Positions 14,393 to 41,885 of a stretch of 60,999 nt of DNA are shown here, piece by piece (positions within the stretch are counted from its first letter, which is position 1; each line of letters begins with the position of its first letter). Source of the stretch: Deltaproteobacteria bacterium (lineage in GTDB: Bacteria; Myxococcota_A; Polyangia; DRWM01; JAAZOP01); the NCBI GenBank assembly GCA_016218765.1, contig JACRCZ010000077.1, positions 1-60,999 of the forward strand, read 5' to 3'. Both the position numbers and the translations under genes were made by a program. The notes beneath the pieces were generated by a model. It searched no databases. It saw only the letters and a list, made by a program, of their open reading frames with translations, and was not told the DNA's origin.

Positions 14393-15534
14393 GCAACACC
14401 ATGACCACGCCCGGTCGGGACGAGCTGCTCGCGCTGGCAGGCACCGGCAACCCGGACGAGCTGCGCCGCACCGCCGCCCAGGCAACCCCGGAGGACGCCG
14501 GGGCGCTCGTCGCCGCCCTGGCCGAACGCGGCGATGCCGCCGCGCTCGCCGCCCTCGACGCGGAAGTCGTCCCGAAGAACACCCGCAAGGCGGCAAGGCG
14601 CGCCCTCCACGCCCTGCGCGCCAAGGGCGTCCGCACCACGGAACCGGAACGCATCGGACGCCTCGGCACCGTCAACCCGGACCCCGCCACCGCCTTCCGG
14701 GCCGAAGCCTACGTCGCCGTCCCCCCGCCGCTCGCCGAGCTGCTGCTCGTCGTGCGCACCGCCGCCGACCGCCACCTCTACGTCGGGATCCTCGACGAGG
14801 AGGAACGCGTGATCGAAGGCGCCGCCTTCGGCGGCGCCACCAGACAGGGCGTGCGCGACCTCCTGGCCCGCAGGCGCAGCCGCGCCGACGCCTACGTCCC
14901 GCTCGACCCGGGCCACGTCGCCGCACGCCTGCGCGCGGCCGTGCTCCGCGCGCCGTCGCCCCACGGCAAGAAGGCAGGCCTCGGACGCGCCGAGATCGCC
15001 GAACAGCTCCCGTTCTGCGAGCCGCTCGCGGACGCCCCACACCCGGCCCTGGCCCTCGCCCCGGACGACCCGGCCGAGCTCGAAGCCGAGGCGGCCTGGG
15101 TCATCGAGCGCCTGGACGCGCGGGACCTGCCGTTCGCGCTCTCGCGCGAGCAGGTCGCGCTCCTCACGAAACGCCTGAACGCCGCTCGCGAAGCCCCGCT
15201 CATCGTCGTCCCCGGAACCGAAGCGAACCGCGAGGCCCAGGCCTTCCGCGCCTTCCTCGACGAAGACCTGCCCGCCGACCTCAAGACGGCCCTGGGCCTG
15301 CGCCTCCTGGATCGCGCGTGGGTCGCCCGCGAACACCGCGAAGCACGCCAGGCACGCGGCGAGGCCGCCTGCGGCGCGGCGCTCCTGCACCGCCCCGACT
15401 CCAACGTCGCCCAGGCACTGCTGCTGCGCTTCGCCGCCCTCCACGTCCGCCCCCCGCGAAGCACCGGCGACGAGAACGACCGGCACGACCAGCCGCCCGA
15501 ACGCCGCAGCGGCGGCGGCATCATCCTCCCGTAG
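14389..15534 (+). CDS. conserved hypothetical protein in the phosphoesterase-RidA operon
   Basis: A 381-residue, Ala/Arg/Glu-rich soluble protein. The N-terminal ~100 residues look like HEAT-type or other helical repeats (VAALAERGDAAALAALDAEV, TRKAARRALHALRAKGVRTT). The middle has LLLVVRTAADRHLYVGILDE, a mixed alpha/beta segment. I do not recognise a family. GTG 14389 overlaps the ridA stop. Its last 14 bp overlap the convergent ATC-hydrolase-like gene. Confidence 0.65.
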   Translation: MSNTMTTPGRDELLALAGTGNPDELRRTAAQATPEDAGALVAALAERGDAAALAALDAEVVPKNTRKAARRALHALRAKGVRTTEPERIGRLGTVNPDPATAFRAEAYVAVPPPLAELLLVVRTAADRHLYVGILDEEERVIEGAAFGGATRQGVRDLLARRRSRADAYVPLDPGHVAARLRAAVLRAPSPHGKKAGLGRAEIAEQLPFCEPLADAPHPALALAPDDPAELEAEAAWVIERLDARDLPFALSREQVALLTKRLNAAREAPLIVVPGTEANREAQAFRAFLDEDLPADLKTALGLRLLDRAWVAREHREARQARGEAACGAALLHRPDSNVAQALLLRFAALHVRPPRSTGDENDRHDQPPERRSGGGIILP

Positions 15535-16195
15535 GCGAGGCCGCCGCCGCCGTACGCGCCCGGCGGGCCGTCAGATCCCCGACGACGTGGAAGGTGAAAC
15601 GGCACAGCGGCGCCCCCCGCGCGATCGTCATGTCGCGGACCAGCACGAGCTGCGGGTCGCCGCGCGTCAGCAACGGGGACTCCGCGTCGCAGAAACACGT
15701 CGTGACCTCGGGCGCCCCCGCGGCATGGCAGATCTCGTGGATGCGACACCGCAGGATCTCGAGCTGCACCGTCCCCGGCGCGCCCTCCAGCCAACGGACG
15801 TCGTAGATCCCCAGCTCCTGCCCCGTCGAAAGCGTCGCCTCGATCGCCTCCGCCAGGGCCTCGAGCGGATCGTCGTCCGCGGCCCGCAGCGGCGGAAGCG
15901 CCAGGTGCCGCGCGGCGGCGACGATCGCCGCGCGAAGCGTCCCCAGCGCCCGGTGCGGACCGATGCTGCGTACCAGCGCGTGGTAGCAGGCCACCGCCCC
16001 GACCGCGGCGTACAGGATGGGACTGGCGCCGACCCCCGCCAGCGCCGCCTGCCGGCGGAACGTCGCCGGCGCCGAAAGCGCCGCGATCGCCCGCGTCGCC
16101 GCGACGAGGCCCGCCTTGCGCCGGATCTCCTCCAGGAACGTCGACAACAGCCGGGCCCGGCGAAGAGGCGTGGGATGGAACGGATCCAACGGCAT
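15521..16195 (-). CDS. L-2-amino-thiazoline-4-carboxylate hydrolase-like protein
   Basis: A 224-residue protein resembling the ATC-hydrolase family (PF14196), known from conversion of L-2-amino-thiazoline-4-carboxylate to N-carbamoyl-cysteine, although most members have no tested substrate. Visible: the helical N-terminus FLEEIRRKAGLVAATRAIAA, then VQLEILRCRIHEICHAAGAP and VTTCFCDAESPLL with conserved His/Cys residues, and C-terminal LCRFTFHV. ATG 16195 was preferred over an upstream start because a TTGCCA-17-TACGGT promoter ends 9 nt before it. Confidence 0.6.
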   Translation of the reverse strand: MPLDPFHPTPLRRARLLSTFLEEIRRKAGLVAATRAIAALSAPATFRRQAALAGVGASPILYAAVGAVACYHALVRSIGPHRALGTLRAAIVAAARHLALPPLRAADDDPLEALAEAIEATLSTGQELGIYDVRWLEGAPGTVQLEILRCRIHEICHAAGAPEVTTCFCDAESPLLTRGDPQLVLVRDMTIARGAPLCRFTFHVVGDLTARRARTAAAASPTGG

Positions 16196-16204
16196 CGCGG
16201 CTGT

Positions 16205-16233
16205 ACCGTACAACCGACGCCGCACCCTGGCAA
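16205..16233 (-). promoter_or_regulatory. sigma70-like promoter, leaderless type, of the ATC-hydrolase-like gene
   Basis: Minus strand: TTGCCA (16233-16228), 17-bp spacer, TACGGT (16210-16205), then 9 nt to ATG 16195. Confidence 0.5.
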
Positions 16234-16335: not shown

Positions 16336-17724
16336 ATGAACGCGGCCGATCCGTGGAAGGGCTACCGGGGTCGCGCCCGGGAGGCGCTGCAAAGCCTCGG
16401 AGGGCGCGTCTGGGCCGACGTCGAGATCGAAACCGAAACCGGGACCTTCGTCGGCATCATCCTCCCGCGCTCGGAACAGGCCGACGACCGGCACGTCGTC
16501 CTCAAGCTCCCGACCGGCTACAACGTCGGCCTCGCCGTCGACAAGATCCGCCGCATCGCGGAGCACGGGTTCCGCGAGGCGAAGTACAAGATCCCGGAGA
16601 AGGAGTTCCCCTTCGACCCCGTGAAACCGAAGGTGACGCTGCTCGGAACCGGCGGCACCATCGCCTCGCGCCTCGACTACCGCACCGGCGCCGTCATCCC
16701 CGCCTTCACCCCGGGCGAGCTGTACGGCGCCGTGCCCGAGCTGGCCGACATCGCCAACCTCACCACCATCAAGCTGTTCGGCGTCTTCTCCGAGAACATG
16801 GGACCCGAACAGTACATCGCCACGGCCAAGGCGATCGGCGAGCAGATCGAGAAGGGCGTCGATGGCATCGTGATCGGTCACGGCACCGACACCATGCACC
16901 ATACCTCCGCCGCCCTCACCTTCATGGTCCAGAACTCCCCCGTCCCCATCGTCATGGTCGGCTCGCAACGCTCCAGCGATCGCCCGTCGTCCGACGCCGC
17001 CTTCAACCTCCAGTGCGCCGTCAACGCCGCCGCCAGGGGCCCCATCGCCGAGGTCCTCGTCTGCATGTTCGGCCCCACCTCCGACAGCTACAACCTCCTG
17101 CACCGCGGCACCCGCGTCCGCAAGATGCACTCGTCCTACCGCTCCACCTTCCGCACCATCTCCGACATCCCCGTCGCGACCTGCACCCCGGACGACGTGA
17201 AACCGCTGCGCAGCGACTTCCGCCCGCGACGCATGGACCGCAACGTCACCGTCGATGCCGTCTTCGACGACCGCGTCGCGATCGTCTACTACTACCCGGC
17301 CATGAAGCCGGACATCATCTGGTCGCTGATCGAGAACGGCTACAAGGGCATCGTCGTCAACGGCACCGGTCTCGGCCACGTCAACAAGCCGCTCTACGAA
17401 CCGCTCCGCGAGGCGTGCAAACGCGGCATCTCCGTCGTCATGACCGTCCAGACCATCTGGGGCTACGCCCACATGTTCGTCTACGATACCGGCCGCGACC
17501 TCGTCGAGCTCGGCGTCGTCCCCTGCGCGAACATGCTCGCCGAAGCCGCGTACGTGAAGCTCGGCTGGGTCCTCGCCCATACCCACGAACGCGAGGAGGT
17601 CGCTCGCCGCATGCTCGAACCCGTCAACGGCGAAATCACCGAACGCGAGCCGCCGGACGGCTACCTCGTCTTCCAGGGCGGCCTGCCCGAGGTCGAGGAG
17701 TTCCTGCGAAGGGGGTGGCGCTGA
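16336..17724 (+). CDS. gatD: archaeal-type Glu-tRNA(Gln) amidotransferase subunit D
   Basis: A 462-residue asparaginase-type glutaminase that releases ammonia for the transamidation of Glu-tRNA(Gln) by GatE. An N-terminal beta domain (VEIETETGTFVGIILP) precedes the two-domain asparaginase fold. Catalytic signatures are intact: VTLLGTGGTIASRLDYRTGA with the nucleophilic Thr near residue 108, IVIGHGTDTMHHTSAAL with the Thr-Asp pair, and VRKMHSSYRSTF with the Lys. The TMHHT form of the second motif and the N-terminal extension mark GatD rather than AnsA/AnsB. ATG 16336 follows GAGGAGGAACGGACG. The stop overlaps the gatE ATG (TGATG), so both are made together. This enzyme is described as characteristic of archaea. 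Confidence 0.92.
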   Translation: MNAADPWKGYRGRAREALQSLGGRVWADVEIETETGTFVGIILPRSEQADDRHVVLKLPTGYNVGLAVDKIRRIAEHGFREAKYKIPEKEFPFDPVKPKVTLLGTGGTIASRLDYRTGAVIPAFTPGELYGAVPELADIANLTTIKLFGVFSENMGPEQYIATAKAIGEQIEKGVDGIVIGHGTDTMHHTSAALTFMVQNSPVPIVMVGSQRSSDRPSSDAAFNLQCAVNAAARGPIAEVLVCMFGPTSDSYNLLHRGTRVRKMHSSYRSTFRTISDIPVATCTPDDVKPLRSDFRPRRMDRNVTVDAVFDDRVAIVYYYPAMKPDIIWSLIENGYKGIVVNGTGLGHVNKPLYEPLREACKRGISVVMTVQTIWGYAHMFVYDTGRDLVELGVVPCANMLAEAAYVKLGWVLAHTHEREEVARRMLEPVNGEITEREPPDGYLVFQGGLPEVEEFLRRGWR

Positions 17725-19688
17725 TGGACCCCTGGCGTCACACCCTGATCCACGGCATCGACTTCGACGACGCCGCCTTCTACGGCGCCCTCGGCTTCAA
17801 GTGCGGCCTGGAAATCCACCAGCAGCTCGACACGAGAAAAAAGCTCTTCTGCCACTGCCCCGTCGGCTACCGTAACGACGCTCCCGACGCCGTCATCCTG
17901 CGCCACATGCGCCCCACCCTGTCCGAGATGGGCACCTACGACGGCACCGCCCTCATGGAGTTCAAGACCCACAAGCAGGTCATCTACCACCTGTATCGCG
18001 ACAACGTCTGCACCTACGAGATGGACGACACGCCTCCCTTCCCCATCAACCAGGAGGCCCTCGACGACGCCATCGAAATCGCCCTCATGCTCAACTGCAA
18101 GCTCGTCGACGAGGTCCACATCACCCGCAAACAGTACCTCGACGGCTCCATCCCCACAGGCTTCCAGCGCACCGCCATCATCGGCGTCGATGGGTGGATC
18201 CCCTACCGCGACCGGCGCATCGAGATCCAGCAGCTCGCGCTCGAGGAGGACGCCTGCCGCGAGGTCGATGACAAGAGGCACACCGTCGTCTTCCGCACCG
18301 ACCGCCTCTCCACCCCGCTCGTCGAAATCGTCACCAAGCCCGACATGCGCACGCCCCACGAGGCCGCGGAGGTCGACGGCCTGCTCGGCCGCCTCCTGCG
18401 CGCCTCCGGCCGCGTCCGCCGCGGCCTCGGCTCCGCACGCCAGGACGTCAACGTCTCCATCACCGGCTCCGATCGCGTCGAAATCAAGGGCGTCCCCCGC
18501 ACCCCCGACATCCGCGCCCTCACCCACTACGAAGCCCTCCGCCACAAGGCACTCCTCGAGCTCCGCGCCGAGCTCGCGCGCCGCGGCATCACCCCCGCCA
18601 ACTTCCCCCACCGCGAGCGGGACGTCACCGGCATGATGGCCAAGACCAGGAACGAACGGCTGCGCAAGTTGCGCGAGGCCGGCGGACGCCTCCGCGCCGT
18701 CCTCCTCGCAGGCTGGGGCGATACCCTCGCCTGGAAAACCCAGCCGGGACTCACCTTCGCCGACGAGCTCGGCGGCCGCGTCCGCGTCATCGCCTGCCTC
18801 GACGAAATGCCCAACCTCTTCGTCCTCGACGGCCGCGGCACCGGCGTCGCCGTCCACGAGGAAGCTCACGTCCGCAAAGCCCTCGGCGCCGCCGCCGGCG
18901 ACGCCGTCGTCCTCACCTTCGGCCCCGCCGAGGACGCCCAGACCGCCGTCAACGAAATCCTCGAACGCGCCCGCAACGCCCTCGCCGGCGTCCCCCAGGA
19001 AACCCGCCAGCACCTCCCCGACGGCTGCCGCACCGACTTCGAACGCATCCTCCCCGGCCCCGACCGCATGTACCCCGACACCGACTCGCCCCCCGTCCCC
19101 CTCGCCCGCGATCGTCTCGCCGCCATCGTCGCCCAACAGGCCAAACGCCCCTGGGAACGAGAAGAGCTCTACCGCGCCCGCGGCGTGCCCCCCTCCACCG
19201 CCCGCCAGCTCGCCATCCACCGCCACGCCCGCGTCTTCGAACGCCTCCTCGACCACACCCCCACCCCGGCCTGCACCACCGCCGTCGCCCTCGCCGACTG
19301 GGACAAGGCCCTCCGCCGCAACCTGCGCCGCGAAGGGAAACTCCTCCCCCTCCCCGCCCCCGAAACCCTCGAGACCTTCCTCCGCCTCGCCGCCCAGCGC
19401 CGGACCCCCTGCCGCGCCCTCCGCCTCGGCCTCGCCCGCCTCTACGAAACCGGCGCCGCGGATCCCCCGCCACCCCTGCCCGACCCCGAGCTGCAGGCGC
19501 TCTGCGAAACCGTCGTGCGCGAATCCGCCACCGCCTGGTGGCGCACCCGGACCAAGACCGTCGATCACCTGCTCGGCCTCGCCGTCGAACGCAGCGCGGG
19601 CCGCGCCGAACCCGCCACAGCCCGCCGCATCCTCGAGCGCCTCGTCCCGCCCGAACCGCCCGCACCCGTCACCGCGAAATCGTGCTGA
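17724..19688 (+). CDS. gatE: archaeal-type Glu-tRNA(Gln) amidotransferase subunit E
   Basis: A 654-residue GatB/GatE-type kinase/amidotransferase subunit that phosphorylates Glu-tRNA(Gln) and amidates it with ammonia from GatD. The N-terminal catalytic 'cradle' has LGFKCGLEIHQQLDTRKKLF, CHCPVGYRND, MDDTPPFPINQEA, RKQYLDGSIPTGFQRT, LEEDACREV and STPLVEIVTKPDM. The insert near residues 330-450 (VIACLDEMPNLFVLDGRGTG) corresponds to the AspRS-like domain that distinguishes GatE from bacterial GatB. The C-terminal YqeY-like tail is Pro/Arg-rich but full length. With gatD it forms a two-gene operon. Confidence 0.92.
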   Translation: MDPWRHTLIHGIDFDDAAFYGALGFKCGLEIHQQLDTRKKLFCHCPVGYRNDAPDAVILRHMRPTLSEMGTYDGTALMEFKTHKQVIYHLYRDNVCTYEMDDTPPFPINQEALDDAIEIALMLNCKLVDEVHITRKQYLDGSIPTGFQRTAIIGVDGWIPYRDRRIEIQQLALEEDACREVDDKRHTVVFRTDRLSTPLVEIVTKPDMRTPHEAAEVDGLLGRLLRASGRVRRGLGSARQDVNVSITGSDRVEIKGVPRTPDIRALTHYEALRHKALLELRAELARRGITPANFPHRERDVTGMMAKTRNERLRKLREAGGRLRAVLLAGWGDTLAWKTQPGLTFADELGGRVRVIACLDEMPNLFVLDGRGTGVAVHEEAHVRKALGAAAGDAVVLTFGPAEDAQTAVNEILERARNALAGVPQETRQHLPDGCRTDFERILPGPDRMYPDTDSPPVPLARDRLAAIVAQQAKRPWEREELYRARGVPPSTARQLAIHRHARVFERLLDHTPTPACTTAVALADWDKALRRNLRREGKLLPLPAPETLETFLRLAAQRRTPCRALRLGLARLYETGAADPPPPLPDPELQALCETVVRESATAWWRTRTKTVDHLLGLAVERSAGRAEPATARRILERLVPPEPPAPVTAKSC

Positions 19689-32165: not shown

Positions 32166-35156
32166 CTACGAAGCCGGCTCGACCCGCACGCGCGTGTCGT
32201 TGAAGGAGACGCTCCCCCCGATCGGATCCTGGAGGGAGACGTTGCCCAGATAGTCGTCCAGGCGCATCACCGGGTTCACCGTCAGGCCCGAGCCACGGGA
32301 CTGGTCGAACGATGTGGCCGTGCCGTCAACCGCATGCGGCCGCGAGCTCTGCTCCCAGTGCCCGAAATGGTGCATCACCGCGACGACACCCGGCCTCTGC
32401 CCCTCGATCACCCGCGCCGTTCCCACGACACCAGACGGGTTCGACACCGAGACGATGCGCACCCGATCCCCCGTCTCGATGCCCAGCGTCCGGGCATCGG
32501 AAACCGCCAGGTCGACGTAGTTCTGCGGCTGCATCACCATCAGCCACGGGTTCACGTTCGTCCGCCCCTGGCCGTGCAACACACTCTTGTACGTCACGAG
32601 CTGCATCGGGTAGGCCGGGTCGTCCACCGGAACGCCGTTGCAGTGCGAGATCGGAGTCCAGTTGGCGGTGCCACGGTACTTGACGCCCGTAATCGAATCG
32701 GTGGTCGTCGCAAAAGCAGGGACGTAGAAATGGAGCACGCCGCCGTACTTGCTGTTCAACAGGTTGGGGTTGGCCGTGTCGTACGAAGTACCGGGATTCG
32801 CGAACGCCCCGCCCCGGGCGATGAAGTCCGCCGCCGTGATCGCCGCGCCGCCGATGCTCGTGCCCACGTTGATCACCGCGTTGTTGACCTGATGCTTGAA
32901 CATGTCCCAGGCCCGGTCGAGACCGCCGGCGGCGCCGAACGCGCTCGCACCCACCCCGGGGAAGGACGTCGAGATGGCCTTGGCCAGGTTGATCAGGATG
33001 TCGGCGTACATCATCGTGTCCGGCAGGAACGGCGTGTACGCGTTCGTCGCCGTCGGGTTGAAGCTCCACGTGCCCGTTCCGCCAATCACCGTGCCGTCGT
33101 ACGCACCGACAACCGGCTGCTGGAACGGCGTGAACTTCGTGAGGATCGTCGGCGTACCCCCAGGGAACGACCACTTCTCCAGGAATGTCGTGTCCGGCAG
33201 CACGTAGTCCGCCCACGCCGCCACCTCGCCCATCACAGGGCTGATCGCCACGAACAACGGCAGCTTGACCTCGTCCGATACCGTTCGCTCCCACGTCGCC
33301 TTCCCGCCCGGAACGGAATACGGCCACGCGTTCCAGTAGGTAAACAGCACCTTCGCAGGGTAGGGATACGCATCCTCGATCGACGGGATCAACTCCTGGA
33401 ACACACCGTGACTGCCGAACGGGAACCACGGCCGCGGTGTCGGGTAGCCGACGTAGTACGACTTCGTCGAATTGTAGACCGAGCCCTTCGCCCGATCCAT
33501 CCGCGGCCCCACCCGCGTCGGCGCGCCGGTCACGGCCGCCGTGTCCACCCCGCCCGTCGCCGTCACCTCGCTCCAGCCGCCGCCGCCCTTCGCCAGCCCG
33601 CCGGCCCAGTCGACGTTGCCGATGAGCCAGTTGAGCGCCATGACCGAGAGCTGCGTGTACGTCCCGTTGGTGTGCTGCACCGCACCACGATAGGTCCAGG
33701 CGGAAGCCTTCCGCCCGTGGGACGTGAAGTCCGTCGCCAGCGTCGTGATCGTCGTCTCGCTCACCCCGCACAGCGTCGCGTACTCGTGCAGTGAATGCTC
33801 GAACACCGCCCCGCGGTACAGCTCGAACGCGGTCCGGCAGGCGATGCCGTTGACCACAGTGTCCGACCCGGCGCCGGGCTCGAGCCGCCCGACCGCGGCG
33901 GCGGGCGACGTGCCGCGCACCGCCGCCTCGATCGTGACCCCGTCCGAGTCACGGACGCAGACCGGGTTGGCCGCGTCCAACGGAGCGGAAAGCCCGGCCT
34001 CGGCCGCGGTCAGGAACTTGCCCTGGTTGGCGTGGCCGGGCTGCACGATGACCAGCCACGTGGCGTCGGTGTACGTCGAATCCGTGGCCGCCGTCGCCGC
34101 CGCCTTGTTGGCCAGCCGCAGATACGCGGCGTTGTACGTGCCGGCCCCGAGAATCACCCGGGCCATCCCGAGCGCCAAGGCGGAATCGCCACCCGGACGA
34201 ATGGGGACCCAGGTGTCGGCCTTCGCGGCGGAGTTGGAAAATCGCGGGTCCACGATCACGACCCGCCCCGGCCCGCCGGCACGCGCCAGATCGCGCATGT
34301 CCGCGTTCAGCCGCGCCAGCGCCAGCATCGGGAAGTTCGCCTCGACCGGGTTGCCGCCGAAGACAATCATGTATTCGGCCTTCAGCATGTCCGTCTTGAA
34401 GTGGTTGGGACCCTGCGCGGCCGTGACGTGGTCGAGCGTCATGTACTCGTTGCCGGTGTGGTGGCTGACCTCGCAGATCGACGTGTGGTCGATGCCGTAG
34501 TTCACGGAGCCGTAGGCGGTCTTGAAGACGCGCTCCGAAACGGACTTCTCGATCGACCGGCCCGGCGACAGGATGAGCTGATTGGCAATCTTGCCCAGAT
34601 CCACGCTGCCGTCATCGATGTTCGTCGTGTTGCGCGACGAGAACGGGATCAGCGCGTTGACCCTCGCCGCGATCTCCGTGAAGGCCTGCGTCCACGTGAT
34701 GGTCTCCCACCGCCCCGAACCACGGGCGCCGACACGCTTGAGCGGATGCTGGATCCGCAGCGGGTCGTACAGCGTCTGCACCCCGGCCTGGCCCTTGGGA
34801 CACAACCTGCCGAACTGCGTGCGCGCCGCCGCCGGCGTCGTGGCGTACGTCAGCCGCTCGTCCTCGCCGCGGTTGTTCGGGTGCCACGGATTCCCGTCGA
34901 TCTTCAGGAGCTGGCCCGCAAGCACCTTGGCCTTGATGCCGCACCGGCTGTGGCACATCTGGCATGTCGAGTGGATGAACACCACGTCGGTGTCGTCCTC
35001 GGTCGGATCCGGCGCGGCCGACGCCGTCGACTCGCGCAACACCGCCGGCAGCAGCGCCGCCGCGGCCGCCACCGTCCCGGTCACCTTGAGAAAGTCCCGC
35101 CGGTCAACCGACGCCGCCGTCGTTCCCGGCTGCTCATTGCTCTTGCCTTCGCCCAT
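32166..35156 (-). CDS. molybdopterin oxidoreductase, catalytic subunit (Ttr/Arr/Srr-like)
   Basis: A 996-residue Mo-bisPGD enzyme of the DMSO-reductase family. Tat signal: SVDRRDFLKVTGTVAAAAAL. Proximal [4Fe-4S] site: STCQMCHSRCGIKAK, then QFGRLCPKG. A Cys in DHTSICEVSHHTGNE is the likely Mo ligand. Typical cofactor segments are EYMIVFGGNPVEANFPMLAL, VVIVDPRFSNSAAKADTWVP and IRPGGDSALALGMARVIL. Length and the VVDPRFSNSAAKAD / HANQGKFLTAAEAGL pattern point to the tetrathionate/arsenate/selenate reductase branch rather than nitrate or formate enzymes. Substrate is not decided; the nearby ACR3 and PhnD-like sensor favour an oxyanion such as arsenate. ATG 35156 follows GGAGGAACG. The operon has no NrfD-type membrane anchor of its own. 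Confidence 0.88.
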   Translation of the reverse strand: MGEGKSNEQPGTTAASVDRRDFLKVTGTVAAAAALLPAVLRESTASAAPDPTEDDTDVVFIHSTCQMCHSRCGIKAKVLAGQLLKIDGNPWHPNNRGEDERLTYATTPAAARTQFGRLCPKGQAGVQTLYDPLRIQHPLKRVGARGSGRWETITWTQAFTEIAARVNALIPFSSRNTTNIDDGSVDLGKIANQLILSPGRSIEKSVSERVFKTAYGSVNYGIDHTSICEVSHHTGNEYMTLDHVTAAQGPNHFKTDMLKAEYMIVFGGNPVEANFPMLALARLNADMRDLARAGGPGRVVIVDPRFSNSAAKADTWVPIRPGGDSALALGMARVILGAGTYNAAYLRLANKAAATAATDSTYTDATWLVIVQPGHANQGKFLTAAEAGLSAPLDAANPVCVRDSDGVTIEAAVRGTSPAAAVGRLEPGAGSDTVVNGIACRTAFELYRGAVFEHSLHEYATLCGVSETTITTLATDFTSHGRKASAWTYRGAVQHTNGTYTQLSVMALNWLIGNVDWAGGLAKGGGGWSEVTATGGVDTAAVTGAPTRVGPRMDRAKGSVYNSTKSYYVGYPTPRPWFPFGSHGVFQELIPSIEDAYPYPAKVLFTYWNAWPYSVPGGKATWERTVSDEVKLPLFVAISPVMGEVAAWADYVLPDTTFLEKWSFPGGTPTILTKFTPFQQPVVGAYDGTVIGGTGTWSFNPTATNAYTPFLPDTMMYADILINLAKAISTSFPGVGASAFGAAGGLDRAWDMFKHQVNNAVINVGTSIGGAAITAADFIARGGAFANPGTSYDTANPNLLNSKYGGVLHFYVPAFATTTDSITGVKYRGTANWTPISHCNGVPVDDPAYPMQLVTYKSVLHGQGRTNVNPWLMVMQPQNYVDLAVSDARTLGIETGDRVRIVSVSNPSGVVGTARVIEGQRPGVVAVMHHFGHWEQSSRPHAVDGTATSFDQSRGSGLTVNPVMRLDDYLGNVSLQDPIGGSVSFNDTRVRVEPAS

Positions 35157-35176
35157 GGTTCGTTCCTCCGCCACGG

Positions 35177-36280
35177 TCAGGGATAGTAGAAGTCGGCCGC
35201 AATGCCGCCGTCGTGACACATCGAGCAGCGCGCCACCGCCACCTGGCGCCGCAGGTTCCCCGCCGAACGGTTGGGGCCGAGATCGACCGTCGGGTGGCAG
35301 TACATGCAGTCCTCGTTGTCGACCCCCGTCGCAGTGTCGAAGGTCGGTGTCTCGGGCAGCATCCGCGGATGCGCCTCCTGCACCGTCGGCGAGAGCGTGC
35401 GACGCGTCAGTACCTCGCGGTGGCACTTGAGACAGTCGCCGTCGTAGCGGCTCGACGAAGCATCGTGCAGCGCCACGAGATTCACCCCCGTGAGGTCGAT
35501 CGCCGGCGGACCCTCGGGTCCCCGGCAGTCGTCCAGGTTGACCAGCGTGTCCCCGTTCACGTCTTCCGTCGCGGGATCCGCCACCCCGTCGCCGTCCAGA
35601 TCCCAGCAGTCGTCCCCGGGACCACCACGGCAGTCGTCCACGTCCACCACCGTGTCCCCGTTCACGTCCTCCGTCGCGGGATCCGCCACCCCGTTGCCGT
35701 CGAGATCCCAGCAGTCGTCGCCGGGACCGCCACGGCAGTCGTCCACGTCCACCACCGTGTCCCCGTTCGCGTCCTCCGTCGCCGGATCCCCCACCCCGTC
35801 GCCGTCCAGATCCCAGCAGTCGTCGCCGGGACCACCACGGCAGTCGTCCACGTCCACCACCGTGTCCCCGTTCACGTCCTCCGTCGCGGGATCGGCGACG
35901 CCGTCGCCGTCGAGGTCCCAGCAATCCTCGCCGGGACCACCACGGCAGTCGTCCACGTCCACCACCGTGTCCCCGTTGCGGTCCTCCGTGGCGGGATCGG
36001 GGTCGCCGTTGCCGTTGAGATCCCAGCACGGCTCCCCAGGCGTACCGCCGTCCCCCGAAGTCCCACGGCAATCGAGGACGTCCACCTCTCCGTCGCCGTT
36101 CAGATCCTCGGTCACCGGGTCGCCCGCCCCGTTGCCGTTGAGGTCCCAGCACGGGGCACCGGTCAGCCCGGTCTCGCCGCGGTCGCCGCAGGCGACTCCA
36201 AGAGCCGCCCAGCCAAGCACGGCCAGGACGGGAGCAACTCGCTTGATGGGGTTCGTCGTTCGTGGGTTGCGTTCCTTCAT
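35177..36280 (-). CDS. triheme cytochrome c lipoprotein with repeated Asp-rich linker
   Basis: A 367-residue exported lipoprotein, first in the molybdoenzyme operon. Signal to ALGVAC (lipobox). Residues ~33-250 are six units of the type CWDLDGDGVADPATEDVNGD plus TVVDVDDCRGGPGDD, each with two EF-hand/dockerin-like acidic loops and a Cys pair, so calcium binding and disulphides are likely. The C-terminal ~110 residues have three haem c sites: CLKCH, CMYCH and CSMCH. It probably carries electrons to the exported enzyme at the outer face of a membrane, with the repeats acting as a rigid spacer (inference). ATG 36280 follows GAGGAGG. Confidence 0.8.
   Translation of the reverse strand: MKERNPRTTNPIKRVAPVLAVLGWAALGVACGDRGETGLTGAPCWDLNGNGAGDPVTEDLNGDGEVDVLDCRGTSGDGGTPGEPCWDLNGNGDPDPATEDRNGDTVVDVDDCRGGPGEDCWDLDGDGVADPATEDVNGDTVVDVDDCRGGPGDDCWDLDGDGVGDPATEDANGDTVVDVDDCRGGPGDDCWDLDGNGVADPATEDVNGDTVVDVDDCRGGPGDDCWDLDGDGVADPATEDVNGDTLVNLDDCRGPEGPPAIDLTGVNLVALHDASSSRYDGDCLKCHREVLTRRTLSPTVQEAHPRMLPETPTFDTATGVDNEDCMYCHPTVDLGPNRSAGNLRRQVAVARCSMCHDGGIAADFYYP
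35560..36020. repeat. 105-bp tandem coding repeat
   Basis: Near-identical units with an exact period of 105 bp (35 codons); the marker cagtcgtccacg occurs at 35631, 35736 and 35841, with cagtcgtcc again at 35946. It lies within the triheme lipoprotein gene. Confidence 0.9.
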
Positions 36281-36384
36281 CGCGTGGCGCCTCCTCAGGA
36301 TCTGGAAGCCAATCGTGCCGCGTGCCAACGGCCGCGCAGGGCTCTCGCGCGACCGGCAAACGCCAGCCGCGCGGGGCACCACTT

Positions 36385-36400
36385 TGCACCAAGCATGCCA
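36385..36400 (-). promoter_or_regulatory. sigma54-like (-24/-12) promoter of the molybdoenzyme operon
   Basis: Minus strand TGGCATGCTTGGTGCA: the GG at -24 and GC at -12 have the right 16-bp frame (consensus TGGCACG-N4-TTGCA). It lies about 105 bp before ATG 36280, and the gene just upstream encodes a sigma54-dependent activator. Confidence 0.55.
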
Positions 36401-36527
36401 GCATCGACGGATTGCCGCAGGAGAAGGAGCGAAAGGAGGATTGCCGTGGTTACGCGCAATTCCCGAGGGCATCGCGCCGGTTCGCCCGACCACCGCCCCC
36501 CGCGCCGCGCGGATTCTCGCGGTCAAT

Positions 36528-36541
36528 CACGGGAAACCGTG
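36528..36541. promoter_or_regulatory. inverted repeat, possible activator site
   Basis: CACGGGAAACCGTG, a perfect 5-bp-arm palindrome about 130 bp upstream of the sigma54-like promoter, which is a usual distance for an enhancer site. It may instead be a weak terminator of another transcript. Confidence 0.3.
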
Positions 36542-36587
36542 GCCGCGACCTGCGCCGAAGCTCCTCCAAACAGAAAAGTCTGCTCAC

Positions 36588-37928
36588 CTACTCGATGCCC
36601 AGTTTCGCCAGGCGGTCGCGGAACGTCGACGGCGCCAGACCCAGCTCCTCGGCGGCACGAGTGCGGTTCCCCCCGGTACGGCGCAGCGCCTCCAGCAGCA
36701 GGTCGCGCTCGGCGCGAGCCAACACCTCGTCGAGCCGGCCACGGGGAGAAGGAGTGGCCCGGGCCGCCTCCGCGGCGTGCCGGATGTGCAACGGCAGCGC
36801 CGAAACGTCGATCGGACCGCTAGGCACCAGCACGAGCAGCCGCTTCACCAGGTTCTCCAGCTCGCGCACGTTGCCGGGCCACGGGTGCGCCAGGAGCACG
36901 TCGAGCGCCTCCGGGGCGACCTGGACGGCGCGCCCCGGCGCGTAGCGCACCAGGAACCGCTCGAGGAGCAGCGGCAGGTCCTCCAGCCGCTCGCGGAGCG
37001 GCGGCAGGTGCATCGGCAGCACGTTGATCCGGTAGAACAGGTCGCGCCGGAATTTCCCCTGCTCGACCAGTCCGCCAAGGTCGGCCTTCGTGGCGACGAT
37101 GATCCGCACGTCGACACGGATCGGCCGCTCGCCGCCGACCCGCTCGATCACGCCGTCCTGGAGCACCTCGAGCAGCTTGACCTGCAGGCCGGCCGGGACG
37201 TCATCAATCTCGTCGAGCATCAGCGTCCCGCCGTCGGAGCGCTCGAAGCGTCCCACGACACGCTGGTCGGCGCCCGTGTAGGCGCCCTTCTCATGGCCGA
37301 ACAGCTCGCTCTCGATCAGCTCCGGGCTGAGGGAGGCGCAGCTCACCTTCACGAACGATCTGTCGCAGCGGCGGCTTCGGCCGTGGATCAGGCGGGCCAG
37401 GTGCTCCTTGCCGGTCCCCGTCTCCCCCGCAATGAGCACGATCTCGTCCGAGCCCGCCACCAACGGCAGGTCGGCCAGAATCCGGCTCATCGCCGGCGCC
37501 GACCCCAGTTCGTCCTCGCGACAACAACGCTCGACCCGCCGGCGCAGCGCGCTGTTCTCGTCCTCCAGCGCCCGGACCGAGCGGATCCGTTCCAGCAGGA
37601 CCAGCAGCTCGTCCACCTCGAACGGCTTCGTCAGGTAGTCGAACGCGCCCAGCCGCATCGCACGAACCGCGTCGCGCACCGTGCCGAACGCCGTCATGAA
37701 CACGAACGGAACCCGGGGACGCACCTGCCGCGCCTGTTCCAGGAACTCGAACCCGTCCATCCCCGGCAGCCGGATGTCCGCGAGCACCAGGTCGCAGGGC
37801 TCCCGCTGCAACCCCGCCAGGGCGGAGGCGGGCCGCTCGTGGTCCTCCACCACGTGACCCGACTTCTCCAGCTCGTTGCGCAACGAGACGCGCAGGATGT
37901 TCTCGTCCTCGACCAGCACGATGCGCAT
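36588..37928 (-). CDS. NtrC-family sigma54-dependent response regulator
   Basis: A 446-residue enhancer-binding activator. Receiver (~1-118) with VEDEN, phospho-Asp in LVLADIRLPGMDGF, FMTAFG and YLTKPF. AAA+ core (~140-370): Walker A GETGTGKE, sigma54-contact loop FGHEKGAYTGA (GAYTGA variant), Walker B GGTLMLDEID, sensor region VDVRIIVATKADL, and [14 protein letters not shown]. The C-terminal Fis-type HTH is GGNRTRAAEELGLAPSTFRD. Ends a binding protein-kinase-regulator operon and faces the sigma54-like promoter of the molybdoenzyme operon, its likely target. Confidence 0.92.
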   Translation of the reverse strand: MRIVLVEDENILRVSLRNELEKSGHVVEDHERPASALAGLQREPCDLVLADIRLPGMDGFEFLEQARQVRPRVPFVFMTAFGTVRDAVRAMRLGAFDYLTKPFEVDELLVLLERIRSVRALEDENSALRRRVERCCREDELGSAPAMSRILADLPLVAGSDEIVLIAGETGTGKEHLARLIHGRSRRCDRSFVKVSCASLSPELIESELFGHEKGAYTGADQRVVGRFERSDGGTLMLDEIDDVPAGLQVKLLEVLQDGVIERVGGERPIRVDVRIIVATKADLGGLVEQGKFRRDLFYRINVLPMHLPPLRERLEDLPLLLERFLVRYAPGRAVQVAPEALDVLLAHPWPGNVRELENLVKRLLVLVPSGPIDVSALPLHIRHAAEAARATPSPRGRLDEVLARAERDLLLEALRRTGGNRTRAAEELGLAPSTFRDRLAKLGIE

Positions 37929-37971
37929 CTGCTCCTCGCCTCTCTCCCCACGTCACGCCGCCGCGGACCCC

Positions 37972-39459
37972 TCAGCCGGAGCGCTCCCGCGCCTCCGCGG
38001 CCGGAAGCGCGACCAGGAACCGCGTCCCCCGCCCGGGCGCGGATTCGAACGTGACCGTACCGTCGAGATCCTGGACCAGCGTCTTGACCATCGCCAGGCC
38101 CAGCCCCGTACCGCCGCGCTCCGCCTTCGTCGTCACGAACGGATCGAAGATCCGCTCGCGCACCTCCGGGGCAATCCCCGTCCCCCGGTCGATCACCTCG
38201 AGCAGCGCCTGGCCCGCCTCGACCCGCACCTGCAGCTTGACCGCCTCGCCGCGGGGCGATGCGTCGGCCGCGTTGAGCAGCAGGTTGACCAGGATCTGCT
38301 GCAGCAACCCCTCGTCCGTCCGCACAGGACCCAGCCGCGCCGCACACTCGATCTCCAGTCGCACCCCCGCCGCCACGAACCGATGCCGCACCAGCAGCTC
38401 CACCCGCTCCGTCAGCGCACACACGTCGAACGTGCTCGGAGCAGGGCGCGAGCGCGCCGCGACGTCGATCAGGCTCCGCACCGTGCGCTCGATGCTGTGA
38501 CTCGCCTCGATCATCATCCGGGCGTAGCTCCGCGTCTGCTCCACGTCCTCCGGCTCCCGCGAAATCGCCTGCAGACAGTTGCGCAGCCCGGCCAACGGGT
38601 TGTTCACCTCGTGCGCGATGCCGCTCGCCAGCGCACCCACCGTCGCCAGCCGCTCCGCCCGCACGATCCGATCCTGGAACGCCTGCCGATCCTCGTGGAG
38701 CTGGTGCAGGCGCGCGGCCATCGCCTCGAAGCTCCTCGCCAAATCCGCAATCTCGCCCCGCGCCGGAACGTCAAACGCCACCGGCTCCGGGGGCCGCGCG
38801 GGGTCGAAACGAAGCGCCGCCGCTGCCAGCGTCTCCACCGGCGACGCGATGAGGTGCGCCATCAGATGAGCGCCCAGAATCCCGGCGACAAGGAAAGCGA
38901 CCACCATCCCGAGCAGCGCAAGCCGCAGCGACAGCAGCGCGGAACGCACCCGGTCCAGCCGCGCACCGACGCGCAGCGTTCCGATCCGGCCGTCGAGGAC
39001 CGGGACCGCCACGTCGCTGAACTCCGTCCCGCGGTCCAAGACGAGTATGGTCGACTCGTCGCCGGCTGGGGGCCGGTGGGCGGCCGCAAGTCCGCGAGGC
39101 GCTCCCCCGGAGAAGGTCGAGACCACGACCTCCCCGTCGGACGACAGGACGAGCGCGTAGCCCAGCCCGCCGTCGGACTCGACGGCGGCCGCGAGAATGC
39201 GCCGCAGGGCCACCGTGTCCTGCTGCAGGATCGGGCCGGCCGCCTCCGCCGCCAGCAGGCGCGCCGTGGCTCGGGCGCGGTTCTCCACCTCCGCGGCGAG
39301 CACGCGCCCCGCCACCGAGTCGATGAACAGGAAGTTGACCGAACCGAAAACGACCACCGCCGCAATCAGCAGCGCGATGAACCGCGTGCGCAGGCGCAGG
39401 TTGGCCATGAACCGGGGGACGAGCCACGAGGCGACGCGGGAGGTGAAACTCCGGCTCAC
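37972..39459 (-). CDS. membrane sensor histidine kinase of the binding-protein module
   Basis: A 495-residue kinase: helix 1 FIALLIAAVVVFGSVNFLFI (~28-47), periplasmic sensor domain (~50-175), helix 2 LLGMVVAFLVAGILGAHLMA, HAMP, then HisKA with GIAHEVNNPLAGLRN and an HATPase with VNLLLNAADASPRG, DRGTGI and GGTGLGLAMV. Its ATG overlaps the stop of the PhnD-like gene (ATGA), and the NtrC-type regulator follows 43 bp later. The order resembles the ArrT-S-R / ArxX-S-R sensing modules reported beside arsenic respiration genes (from memory). Confidence 0.88.
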   Translation of the reverse strand: MSRSFTSRVASWLVPRFMANLRLRTRFIALLIAAVVVFGSVNFLFIDSVAGRVLAAEVENRARATARLLAAEAAGPILQQDTVALRRILAAAVESDGGLGYALVLSSDGEVVVSTFSGGAPRGLAAAHRPPAGDESTILVLDRGTEFSDVAVPVLDGRIGTLRVGARLDRVRSALLSLRLALLGMVVAFLVAGILGAHLMAHLIASPVETLAAAALRFDPARPPEPVAFDVPARGEIADLARSFEAMAARLHQLHEDRQAFQDRIVRAERLATVGALASGIAHEVNNPLAGLRNCLQAISREPEDVEQTRSYARMMIEASHSIERTVRSLIDVAARSRPAPSTFDVCALTERVELLVRHRFVAAGVRLEIECAARLGPVRTDEGLLQQILVNLLLNAADASPRGEAVKLQVRVEAGQALLEVIDRGTGIAPEVRERIFDPFVTTKAERGGTGLGLAMVKTLVQDLDGTVTFESAPGRGTRFLVALPAAEARERSG

Positions 39460-40406
39460 GGCGCCTCCGCGCGCGCACCGCCGTCCGAGAAGGATGGCGG
39501 CGCGTCCTCGGCCAGCGCCACCCCGGCCACCTCGATCGCGAACGCGTAGTCCGCCCCGGCCACGAACCGCTCGACCCTCAGCCCGGCGAGAATCCGGCCG
39601 CCCTCGACATCGCCGGCCATCCCCAACAGCGCCGACCGCACCGACTCGACCACCGCAAGATCCAGGTCCGCTCGGGCCACGAATGGCGGCGAACCGAAAG
39701 GCGGCGAGCGGTGGATCACCGCCAGCTCACCGGCCTGCTCCGGATGGCGACCCGCGAATCCATCCCATACCAGACTGTCCACCGCAGCGGCTTCCACGGC
39801 GCCGTCGAGCACCAGACGAATGCTCTCGTCGTGGCCGCCCGAGTAGACGACGCCGGCGAAAAACTCGCGCGGCGCGGCCGCGAACCTCCGGCGCAACAGG
39901 TAGATCGGGTACAACCGCCCCGAGTTGGACAGCGGATCGGTGAAGGCGAACCGCGTGTCGCGCAACGCCTCCAGCGTCCCCGGACCGCCCCGCCGCGCCA
40001 CGAACACCGAGGCGTACGACGGGGACCCCGCCACCACCGGCGCGGCCAGCAGCCGCACACGGTCGCGGATCGCCACGTACGCACCCGTGCAGATGAACGC
40101 CACGTCGATCTCGCCGTCCAGCAGCAGCCGGTTCGTCTCCTCGTAGGTCCGCCGCTGCACGAGGTCCGCCCGCCGGCCCGCGCGCCGGGCCAGATACTCC
40201 ATCAGGCTGGCGTAGGACTCGTACGTCTCGCGCGGACCGACCATCGCCCCTACGGCCAGGCGCAACGTGGCGATGTCAGACGCCGCGACCGCCGGCACCG
40301 GCTCCTTCCGCGAAAAATCCACCGCGACCCGCCGTTGCGAACGACAGGCACCCAGAACGAGGAACAACAGCAGGGCAGGCACGGCCCCCCGGACGCACCC
40401 CGACAT
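39456..40406 (-). CDS. PhnD-like periplasmic binding lipoprotein (oxyanion sensor)
   Basis: A 316-residue solute-binding protein with lipobox LVLGAC. The PhnD-type fold shows as LRLAVGAMVGPRETYESYAS, DVAFICTGAYVAIRDRVRLL, YASVFVARRGGPGTLEALRD, RFAFTDPLSNSGRLYPIYLL and YSGGHDESIRLVLDGAVEAA. There is no permease beside it, so it likely hands ligand state to the coupled kinase rather than feeding a transporter. ATG 40406 lies 8 nt after a TAGGAT box, suggesting a leaderless transcript. Confidence 0.85.
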   Translation of the reverse strand: MSGCVRGAVPALLLFLVLGACRSQRRVAVDFSRKEPVPAVAASDIATLRLAVGAMVGPRETYESYASLMEYLARRAGRRADLVQRRTYEETNRLLLDGEIDVAFICTGAYVAIRDRVRLLAAPVVAGSPSYASVFVARRGGPGTLEALRDTRFAFTDPLSNSGRLYPIYLLRRRFAAAPREFFAGVVYSGGHDESIRLVLDGAVEAAAVDSLVWDGFAGRHPEQAGELAVIHRSPPFGSPPFVARADLDLAVVESVRSALLGMAGDVEGGRILAGLRVERFVAGADYAFAIEVAGVALAEDAPPSFSDGGARAEAP

Positions 40407-40414
40407 GGCTCCGT

Positions 40415-40443
40415 ATCCTAGACGCGACCGCCGCGCGGGACAA
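40415..40443 (-). promoter_or_regulatory. sigma70-like promoter of the binding protein-kinase-regulator operon
   Basis: Minus strand: TTGTCC (40443-40438), 17-bp spacer, TAGGAT (40420-40415), then 8 nt to ATG 40406. Confidence 0.5.
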
Positions 40444-40448
40444 GACCA

Positions 40449-40590
40449 GGACCTCTCAGACCAAATCCTCTCAGCGTTCGTCTCAGTGCCCTCAGCGCCT
40501 GCCCGCACCCTGAGCTTGTCGAAGGGTCAGCGGTGCAACCGGTCTCTGCGCTCTCCCGTCCCCTCCGCGCCCTCTCCTCCCCTCCCCACC
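40449..40590. repeat. dispersed repeat cluster between operons
   Basis: A ctctcagcgttcgtctcagtg-type run, with a cctgagcttgtcgaaggg element inside it (about 40508-40527), then ggtctctgcgctctcccg. Two repeat families are nested here. Confidence 0.7.
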
Positions 40591-40598
40591 TCCGGAAT

Positions 40599-41885
40599 TC
40601 AGGTCCCCGCCGCCGTCACCGGCGGCACCGCCTCGGCCTCGGATCCCCCAGCCCGCGGCTCGGGCGCCGGATCCGCGTCGACGTGGAACCGCCCCAACGC
40701 AATCGGCACCGCGACCTTCAACATCAACGTGAACACCAGGAACCCGATCGCGAAAATCCCGGCCGCCACCCGGATCTCCGTCCACGTCGGCGAGTACGAG
40801 TAGATCTCTCCCAGCGTGTCCGGCGTCAGCCCGGGAAGGATGAGCCCCATCCCCTTCTCGATGTACACGCCGAGATACGTCGCGGCGGCACCGAGGTTGA
40901 GCGTCACGAAGTTGCGGCGCGTGCGGGGGATGATGAACAGCACGAACGCCGCGACGTTCAGCACCACCGCCGCCCAGGCGTACGGCTGCAACGCATGATG
41001 CCCGCCCACCCCCTCGTAGAGATACCGCGTGTGCAGCAGATGATGCGTGTCCGAATAGTACTCCTTGAAGATCTCCGCCCCGTGCAGGAACAGGTTCAGG
41101 AACATCGCGTACGCCATCAGCTCCGCGATCTTCCAGATCGCCTCGTCCCGGATGCGGAACGAAGTGAAACGCCGCAGAAGCTGCAGCACGAAGAGCAGGA
41201 TCGCCGGACCCGAGCAGAACGCCGAGGCCAGGAACTGCGGCGCCAGGATCGATGCGTTCCAGTACGGCCGCGCCGCCAGCCCGTTGTACAGGAACGCCGT
41301 CACCGTGTGGATGCTCACCGCCATCGGAATCGACAGCAGCACCAGCGTCCACACCAGCCTGTGGTTGTAGTCCCGGCGCGCAAACCCGCAGTACACCAGG
41401 TGCGTCACCACGATGAAGTTGACGACAAAATACAGGTTCAGCACCAGCACGTCCCACGCCAGCAGCGACGACGGGAAGTTCAGGATGCCGAACGGCGGCA
41501 GGAGATGCCAGAAACGATCGGGCCGGCCGATGTCGACGAACACGAAGAGCAGGCACATCACGATCGCGCTCACCGCCAGCAGCTCGCCGAAAATCGCGAT
41601 CTCCCGGATCGGTCCCCACTTGTAGATGTACGCGGGGATCACCAGCACCACCGCCGCCGCCGCGACCCCGACCAGGAACGTGAAGTTCCCGATGTAGAAC
41701 CCCCACGACACCGGGTCCCGCATCGCCGTGACCGACAACCCGGCGTCGAGCTGGTCCGCGTAGGCCAACACCCCCGACGCCACCAGCAAGAGCAGGAAGG
41801 CGAGCCAGCCCCAGTACAACGCGTTGCCCCGCGTCACCACGCGCGCACTCCCCACGAAGAACCTGGCGAACAGCCGGAAGCGCAT
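40599..41885 (-). CDS. NrfD/DsrP-like integral membrane subunit
   Basis: A 428-residue polytopic inner-membrane protein with about ten helices (LYWGWLAFLLLLVASGVLAY, FTFLVGVAAAAVVLVIPAYI, ELLAVSAIVMCLLFVFVDIG, LILPGLTPDTLGEIYSYSPT and others). The IGNFTFLVGVAAAAV segment and the overall layout fit the NrfD/PsrC superfamily, closest in flavour to DsrP and Hme-type quinol-interacting subunits. It should exchange electrons between the quinone pool and the Tat-exported Fe-S protein encoded 7 bp upstream. Last gene of its operon. Confidence 0.88.
   Translation of the reverse strand: MRFRLFARFFVGSARVVTRGNALYWGWLAFLLLLVASGVLAYADQLDAGLSVTAMRDPVSWGFYIGNFTFLVGVAAAAVVLVIPAYIYKWGPIREIAIFGELLAVSAIVMCLLFVFVDIGRPDRFWHLLPPFGILNFPSSLLAWDVLVLNLYFVVNFIVVTHLVYCGFARRDYNHRLVWTLVLLSIPMAVSIHTVTAFLYNGLAARPYWNASILAPQFLASAFCSGPAILLFVLQLLRRFTSFRIRDEAIWKIAELMAYAMFLNLFLHGAEIFKEYYSDTHHLLHTRYLYEGVGGHHALQPYAWAAVVLNVAAFVLFIIPRTRRNFVTLNLGAAATYLGVYIEKGMGLILPGLTPDTLGEIYSYSPTWTEIRVAAGIFAIGFLVFTLMLKVAVPIALGRFHVDADPAPEPRAGGSEAEAVPPVTAAGT

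Follow-up and report, generated by a model that had tools for sequence, protein, structure and literature searches.

A separate, mainly bacterial branch of the GatDE amidotransferase that coexists with glutaminyl-tRNA synthetase

GatDE is described, in passages of the review PMC9499178, as the amidotransferase that makes Gln-tRNA(Gln) in archaea, where it reads the A1-U72 pair of the tRNA. Here, we report an intact gatD-gatE pair in a stretch of 60,999 nucleotides (the window) from a Deltaproteobacteria bacterium (assembly GCA_016218765.1, contig JACRCZ010000077.1). We show that the pair belongs to a large branch of GatE, which we name GatDE2 (GatE2 for its GatE subunit), that two-subunit GatDE is widespread in bacteria rather than confined to one recipient lineage, and that GatDE2 does not stand in for glutaminyl-tRNA synthetase (GlnRS). 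At roughly even odds (probability about 0.5), we infer that GatDE2 amidates Glu-tRNA(Gln) beside GlnRS as a second, clean-up or back-up route.

Results

The gatD and gatE genes of the window

The pair has the following features, with residue numbers from the window proteins.

16336..17724, plus strand: gatD, glutaminase (asparaginase-type) subunit, 462 amino acids; TIGR02153 at 492 bits (cut-off 324)
16417..16557, plus strand: N-terminal domain of GatD, residues 28-74; PF18195 at 47.8 bits (cut-off 25.7)
16879..16905, plus strand: GatD motif HGTDTMHHT, residues 182-190, read from the sequence; aligns with HGTDTMHYT of 2d6f_A
17724..19688, plus strand: gatE, kinase/transamidase subunit, 654 amino acids; its start codon shares one base with the gatD stop codon
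18126..18173, plus strand: cradle loop of GatE, RKQYLDGSIPTGFQRT, residues 135-150, with the branch-fixed Y138, I143 and P144, from alignment rows
18594..18992, plus strand: AspRS-like insert domain of GatE, residues 291-423
19218..19646, plus strand: putative YqeY-like helical tail of GatE, residues 499-641, weakly conserved

Both genes are intact, and each product scores above the NCBI equivalog cut-off of its own model (GatD or GatE). GatD is composed of GatD_N, Asparaginase and Asparaginase_C domains, and the solved chains nearest to it, 2d6f_A and 1zq1_A, are both GatD. The AspRS-like insert places GatE with GatDE, and two observations separate it from GatCAB: it reaches only 148 bits against GatB models, far below the cut-off of 338, and its partner is GatD. 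GatE also keeps the residues that are invariant across canonical GatE and GatE2, including E30, H32, E174, E175, D176 and E201, which we take to be catalytic, and 513 residues of its predicted fold align with the GatE:tRNA(Gln) complex. Taken with the model scores, this predicted fold and these residues favour the window proteins forming an active enzyme of the GatDE kind.

The window is its source contig in full and comes from a draft assembly (5.9 Mb, 154 contigs) with a completeness of 79.6% and a contamination of 1.6%. The host is a bacterium. Its genome encodes GlnRS on contig C87 (677 bits, cut-off 425.8), two bacterial glutamyl-tRNA synthetases (GluRS) on C6 and C97 (528 and 423 bits, cut-off 289.95) that are 46% identical over their aligned part, a short GluRS-like protein on C111, GatB on C26 (466 bits, cut-off 314.8), GatA on C139 (494 bits, cut-off 481.1) and asparaginyl-tRNA synthetase (AsnRS) on C19 (486 bits, cut-off 342.6). 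The GC content of gatD and gatE is in line with the contig.

The original prediction, made from the letters of the window, had read the pair as GatDE rather than GatCAB in a bacterial genome, and the GluRS, GlnRS, GatB and AsnRS of the host agree with this. Its description of an asparaginase-type GatD with an N-terminal domain and a TMHHT motif, of a GatE with an AspRS-like insert, and of overlapping, intact genes matching the host GC also holds. An archaeal contig, or proteins that were ordinary AnsA or GatB, would have spoken against that reading, and neither outcome was observed. A check of the rest of the genome, as had been suggested, recovered GlnRS, two GluRS, GatA and GatB; the presence of GlnRS, GatA and GatB weakens the implied role of the pair as the route to Gln-tRNA in this cell.

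GatE2 is a separate branch

Trees were built from bacterial GatE rows, 50 GatE stretches from 60 genomes of the archaeal phylum to which genome G053 belongs, and two PDB chains, which alone represent archaea outside that phylum. The phylum is probably Thermoplasmatota, because similar proteins (P0116, P0119, P0213) carry that name; GatE is above cut-off in 53 of its 60 genomes, with two copies in G073 and G082. In both the FastTree tree (133 rows) and the IQ-TREE mixture-model tree (71 of those rows), one clade with a support of 100 holds all bacterial GatE, the window GatE and nine of the 51 archaeal copies (eight in the smaller set). Its stem, of 0.91 (FastTree) and 1.0 (IQ-TREE) changes per site, sets it apart from canonical archaeal GatE, so that the window GatE is not nested among the latter; in G073 as in G082, one of the two copies falls inside the clade and one among canonical GatE. 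Among GatE2, the window sequence groups with Stahliibacteriota and Caldifarciminota (support 100). Bacterial GatE is monophyletic in the IQ-TREE tree (support 89) and not in the FastTree tree.

Five sites distinguish the branch. T75, D102, Y138, I143 and P144 (window numbering) are fixed in all 89 GatE2 rows, and the 44 canonical rows mostly have A (44), E (41), V (43), N (43) and T (41) at the respective positions. The GatE2 loop RKQYLDGSIPTGFQRT stands in place of the Methanothermobacter loop RKQVIDGSNTGGFQRT and, with its pattern RKQY..IP.G, resembles the GatB loop RKSYFYPDLPKGFQ of the window's genome. Mean identity among GatE2 bacteria is 0.70 in the cradle, against 0.53 in canonical archaeal GatE, and 0.20 in the tail, against 0.28, a comparison that is a hint only given that the two sets differ in breadth. 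The cradle values suggest that GatDE2 is under strong selection.

Spread among bacteria and gene order

Our homologue scan of GTDB representatives returned at least 575 relatives among at least 588 matched stretches, of which the best 80 loci were kept. All but one of these (79 of 80) carry bacterial titles, spread over at least 16 phyla (NCBI ranks); the exception, L047, is titled Euryarchaeota archaeon and is the locus of G053. The original prediction of an acquisition by the host lineage therefore does not stand as a lone event, the window pair belonging to a large branch made up mainly of bacterial members. In the automatic annotation of NCBI and JGI, such bacterial proteins are already named GatD and GatE, and no paper on bacterial GatDE stood out among the matches listed from an open-licence literature subset.

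GatD follows the same split as GatE. The window GatD is 61-83% identical to complete bacterial matches and 69% to the GatD of L047, against 35-44% to near-complete canonical GatD of the sampled archaeal phylum, and identity is at least 70% in each of the best 120 homologues listed. In 60 of the 80 loci the retrieved stretch contains both gatD and gatE; many of the stretches of the other 20 end early. The order is gatE then gatD in 54 of these 60 and the reverse, as in the window, in five (L002, L003, L004, L008, L035); in the remaining locus, L047, gatD is on the other strand from gatE. When neighbours were clustered across the 80 loci and window positions 6001-32000, no shared operon partner occurred in more than 11 loci besides gatD, gatE and opposite-strand overlapping frames.

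Coexistence with GlnRS, GatA and AsnRS

Bacterial genomes were picked by closeness to the window GatE, not at random, and absences are weak evidence in draft genomes. GlnRS is above cut-off in 36 of 53 GatDE2 bacteria (26 of 40, 9 of 12 and the window's genome) and GatA in 21 of 41. Among the 40 genomes, 14 have GlnRS and GatA, 12 GlnRS alone, six GatA alone and eight neither above cut-off (G007, G009, G012, G015, G025, G028, G030, G033). One complete genome (G008) and one chromosome record (G022) have GlnRS and no GatA above cut-off. Absence of GlnRS would be expected of a host of canonical GatDE, and the window's genome encodes GlnRS. For bacteria we claim coexistence of GatDE2 and GlnRS and not enrichment, because the share of 36 in 53 only modestly exceeds the 254 of 547 genera obtained by summing Table 2 of PMC4206432. 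AsnRS is above cut-off in 48 of 50 genomes, and a need for GatDE2-made Asn-tRNA, which a missing AsnRS would have created, was therefore rejected; asparagine synthetases were not searched.

Across the 60 archaeal genomes, GlnRS occurs in eight of nine with GatE2, two of 44 with canonical GatE only and four of seven without GatE above cut-off. The association of GatE2 with GlnRS (Fisher P = 4 × 10−7) ignores kinship, and the 14 archaeal GlnRS concerned (G053, G058, G059, G062, G067, G071, G073, G080, G082, G089, G094, G096, G108, G111) form one clade (support 100/100). By sequence, these 14 proteins run counter to the usual view that archaea lack GlnRS. No paper on GlnRS in Thermoplasmatota stood out among the matches listed from the literature subset; earlier sightings are possible, since the available passages of PMC8762117 also hedge with 'most' and 'almost all'.

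tRNA-Gln of the hosts

We searched for tRNA-Gln with a covariance model built from eight tRNA-Gln. On a trial set that included the model's own training rows, tRNA-Gln scored at least 72.5 bits and other tRNAs at most 68.8. In whole genomes the split was not clean, three matches of 72.6-72.7 bits being tRNA-Pro or tRNA-Arg, and tRNA-Gln identity therefore rests on the ARAGORN anticodon. Among the matches listed, 52 of 54 genomes had one, the exceptions being the window's genome and G001; thirteen weaker matches, at about 67-70 bits, all proved to be tRNAs other than tRNA-Gln.

The first pair is U1-A72 in 85 of 86 distinct tRNA-Gln genes (ARAGORN) from 51 GatDE2 bacteria, and A1-U72 in all three tRNA-Gln genes of the archaeon G053. 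GatDE2 bacteria thus do not have the host tRNA-Gln of canonical GatDE, and the archaeal A1-U72 determinant is not usable by bacterial GatDE2. The lone A1-U72 among the 86 is a tRNA-Gln(UUG) (L140:1486-1561, minus strand) of G037, a planctomycete (Planctomycetota) with GatDE2 and GlnRS. Two tRNA-Gln(CUG) genes of G053 differ from each other by one base; one is located some 140 bases upstream of gatD, the other some 860 bases from glnS.

In many GatDE2 hosts, the body of tRNA-Gln(CUG) differs strongly from that of the UUG isoacceptor, and at least two types occur (L164:2400-2473, L146:135-208, L147:138-211 and others). The odd tRNA-Gln(CUG) of Ignavibacteria and Bacteroidota, with the D-arm GGTGTAATTGGCAACAC, was considered as GatDE2's own tRNA and discarded, as the CUG type of other hosts differs; the same D-arm is presumably also found in ordinary Bacteroides. 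Arg358 of GluRS was not used as a sign of non-discrimination, the rule failing in H. pylori according to passages of PMC3927822. By eye, the GluRS on C97 has Gly at this position and that on C6 seems to have Arg, and neither was used as evidence.

Discussion

Proposed role of GatDE2

In the route that we propose, GluRS that does not fully reject tRNA(Gln) would supply Glu-tRNA(Gln); the window's genome has two GluRS that might feed it, and a second GluRS charges tRNA(Gln) in some other bacteria, according to passages of PMC3927822. GatD would hydrolyse glutamine (or asparagine) to release ammonia, which would move to GatE, and GatE would phosphorylate the side-chain carboxyl of the tRNA-bound Glu with ATP and then amidate it. 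Support may be seen in the equivalog scores, the invariant residues, the conserved cradle, the linkage of gatD to gatE in 60 of 80 loci, the tRNA-Gln gene near gatD in G053 and the two GluRS. Direct and indirect formation of Gln-tRNA may then run side by side across bacterial phyla and in some GlnRS-bearing archaea, and GatDE2 would recognise tRNA(Gln) through determinants that do not include A1-U72, a proposition we hold tentatively, at slightly worse than even odds.

Several observations weigh against this role. GlnRS and GatA occur so frequently (36 of 53 and 21 of 41) that an indirect Gln route through GatDE is often unneeded, and four archaea have GlnRS and no GatE above cut-off, meaning that GlnRS does not require GatE. 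The tRNA-Gln of the bacterial hosts nearly always has U1-A72. None was found in the window's genome by Rfam, pattern or covariance model (30 tRNA matches), which is probably an assembly gap, since the genome is a draft and 79.6% complete. No gatD was found within about 6 kb on each side of gatE in L027, L046, L054, L055 and L078, where it may lie elsewhere in the genome, and in G053 gatE and gatD are on opposite strands with one frame between them. Finally, the five residues in or near the active region of the cradle that are changed in every GatE2 could mean another substrate.

This last point leads to the main rival, in which GatDE2 has no role in Gln-tRNA formation and amidates some other aminoacyl-tRNA, such as Asp-tRNA or a different tRNA charged with Glu, or else a carboxylate that is not on a tRNA. 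The five substitutions fixed in 89 of 89 GatE2, the GatB-like loop, a tail far less conserved than the cradle (0.20 vs 0.70), and the coexistence with GlnRS often and AsnRS nearly always (48 of 50) would all suit such a shift. We nevertheless consider it unlikely: the model scores remain within GatE, 513 residues of the predicted fold align with the GatE:tRNA(Gln) complex, gatD of G053 has a tRNA-Gln gene close by, and no other shared neighbour gene points to another pathway. It is more improbable still that GatDE2 is the only Gln-tRNA route of hosts without GlnRS and GatCAB, as in canonical archaea, with coexistence elsewhere being transitional. Eight of 40 bacterial genomes lack both GlnRS and GatA above cut-off, which would fit; however, these are draft contigs, with GlnRS pieces in G012 and a GatA piece in G030, and other Aminicenantes genomes (G029, G031, G036) carry GlnRS.

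That 32 of 40 hosts encode one or two other routes might also suggest a leftover kept without needed function. This appears very improbable, because the mean identity of 0.70 in the cradle among bacteria of different phyla and the GatD identities of at least 70% in each of the best 120 homologues listed both argue for strong selection. A draft of 79.6% completeness and 1.6% contamination might invite the suspicion that the pair is a contaminant or was recently transferred from an archaeon, and we give this almost no credence: the nearest GatE are bacterial (Stahliibacteriota and Caldifarciminota, support 100), the GC content fits the contig, and the contig has a sigma-54 response regulator.

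Other features of the window

Two further features lie around the pair.

15524-16225, minus strand: gene with an L-2-amino-thiazoline-4-carboxylic acid hydrolase domain (domain match), divergent from the adjoining gatD
32166-41885, minus strand: run of molybdopterin oxidoreductase, sigma-54 response regulator, phosphonate-binding-type and NrfD-type genes

Other neighbours encode a RidA-like protein and a metallophosphoesterase. ARAGORN called a 95-base tRNA-Pro at 39428-39522 (minus strand), which is probably false because no RNA family from Rfam was found in the window.

Comparison with known systems and implications

GatDE2 shares with archaeal GatDE (2d6f, 1zq1) both subunits, the main domains, the AspRS-like insert, the equivalog models and the invariant GatE residues. 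It differs in forming a branch of its own, with a stem of about 0.9-1.0 changes per site and five fixed substitutions; in its bacterial hosts, which often have GlnRS and whose tRNA-Gln carries U1-A72 instead of A1-U72; and in the gatE-gatD order of 54 of 60 two-gene loci, which the window does not follow. With bacterial GatCAB it has in common the catalytic cradle and probably the YqeY-like tail of GatB/GatE, and its Y138/P144 loop looks GatB-like, whereas its glutaminase belongs to the asparaginase type instead of being the amidase GatA; the window's genome has its own GatA and GatB elsewhere. The GatCAB of Bdellovibrio, Deinococcus and Thermus offers a parallel, being likewise an amidotransferase retained though direct charging is possible. 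There, GatCAB alongside GlnRS and AsnRS may serve tRNA-dependent Asn synthesis, according to passages of PMC4206432. Here, by contrast, the extra enzyme is GatDE, and GatA is also present in 21 of 41 genomes.

The original prediction was right that GatDE is described as archaea-specific: the available passages of PMC9499178 and PMC8762117 confine it to archaea, use it as an archaeal signature, and build on it arguments about the last universal common ancestor and the absence of GlnRS from archaea. In PMC8762117, archaeal Gln-tRNA formation is 'always' indirect in one place, and elsewhere so in 'almost all' archaea, with GlnRS absent from 'most' genomes. A survey from 2014 states that no bacterium was known with both routes to Gln-tRNA(Gln) (PMC4206432). 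The presence of GatDE2 in many genomes calls into question both the archaea-only view of GatDE and the statement that no bacterium has both routes, and it raises the question of what role an amidotransferase has where GlnRS is already present.

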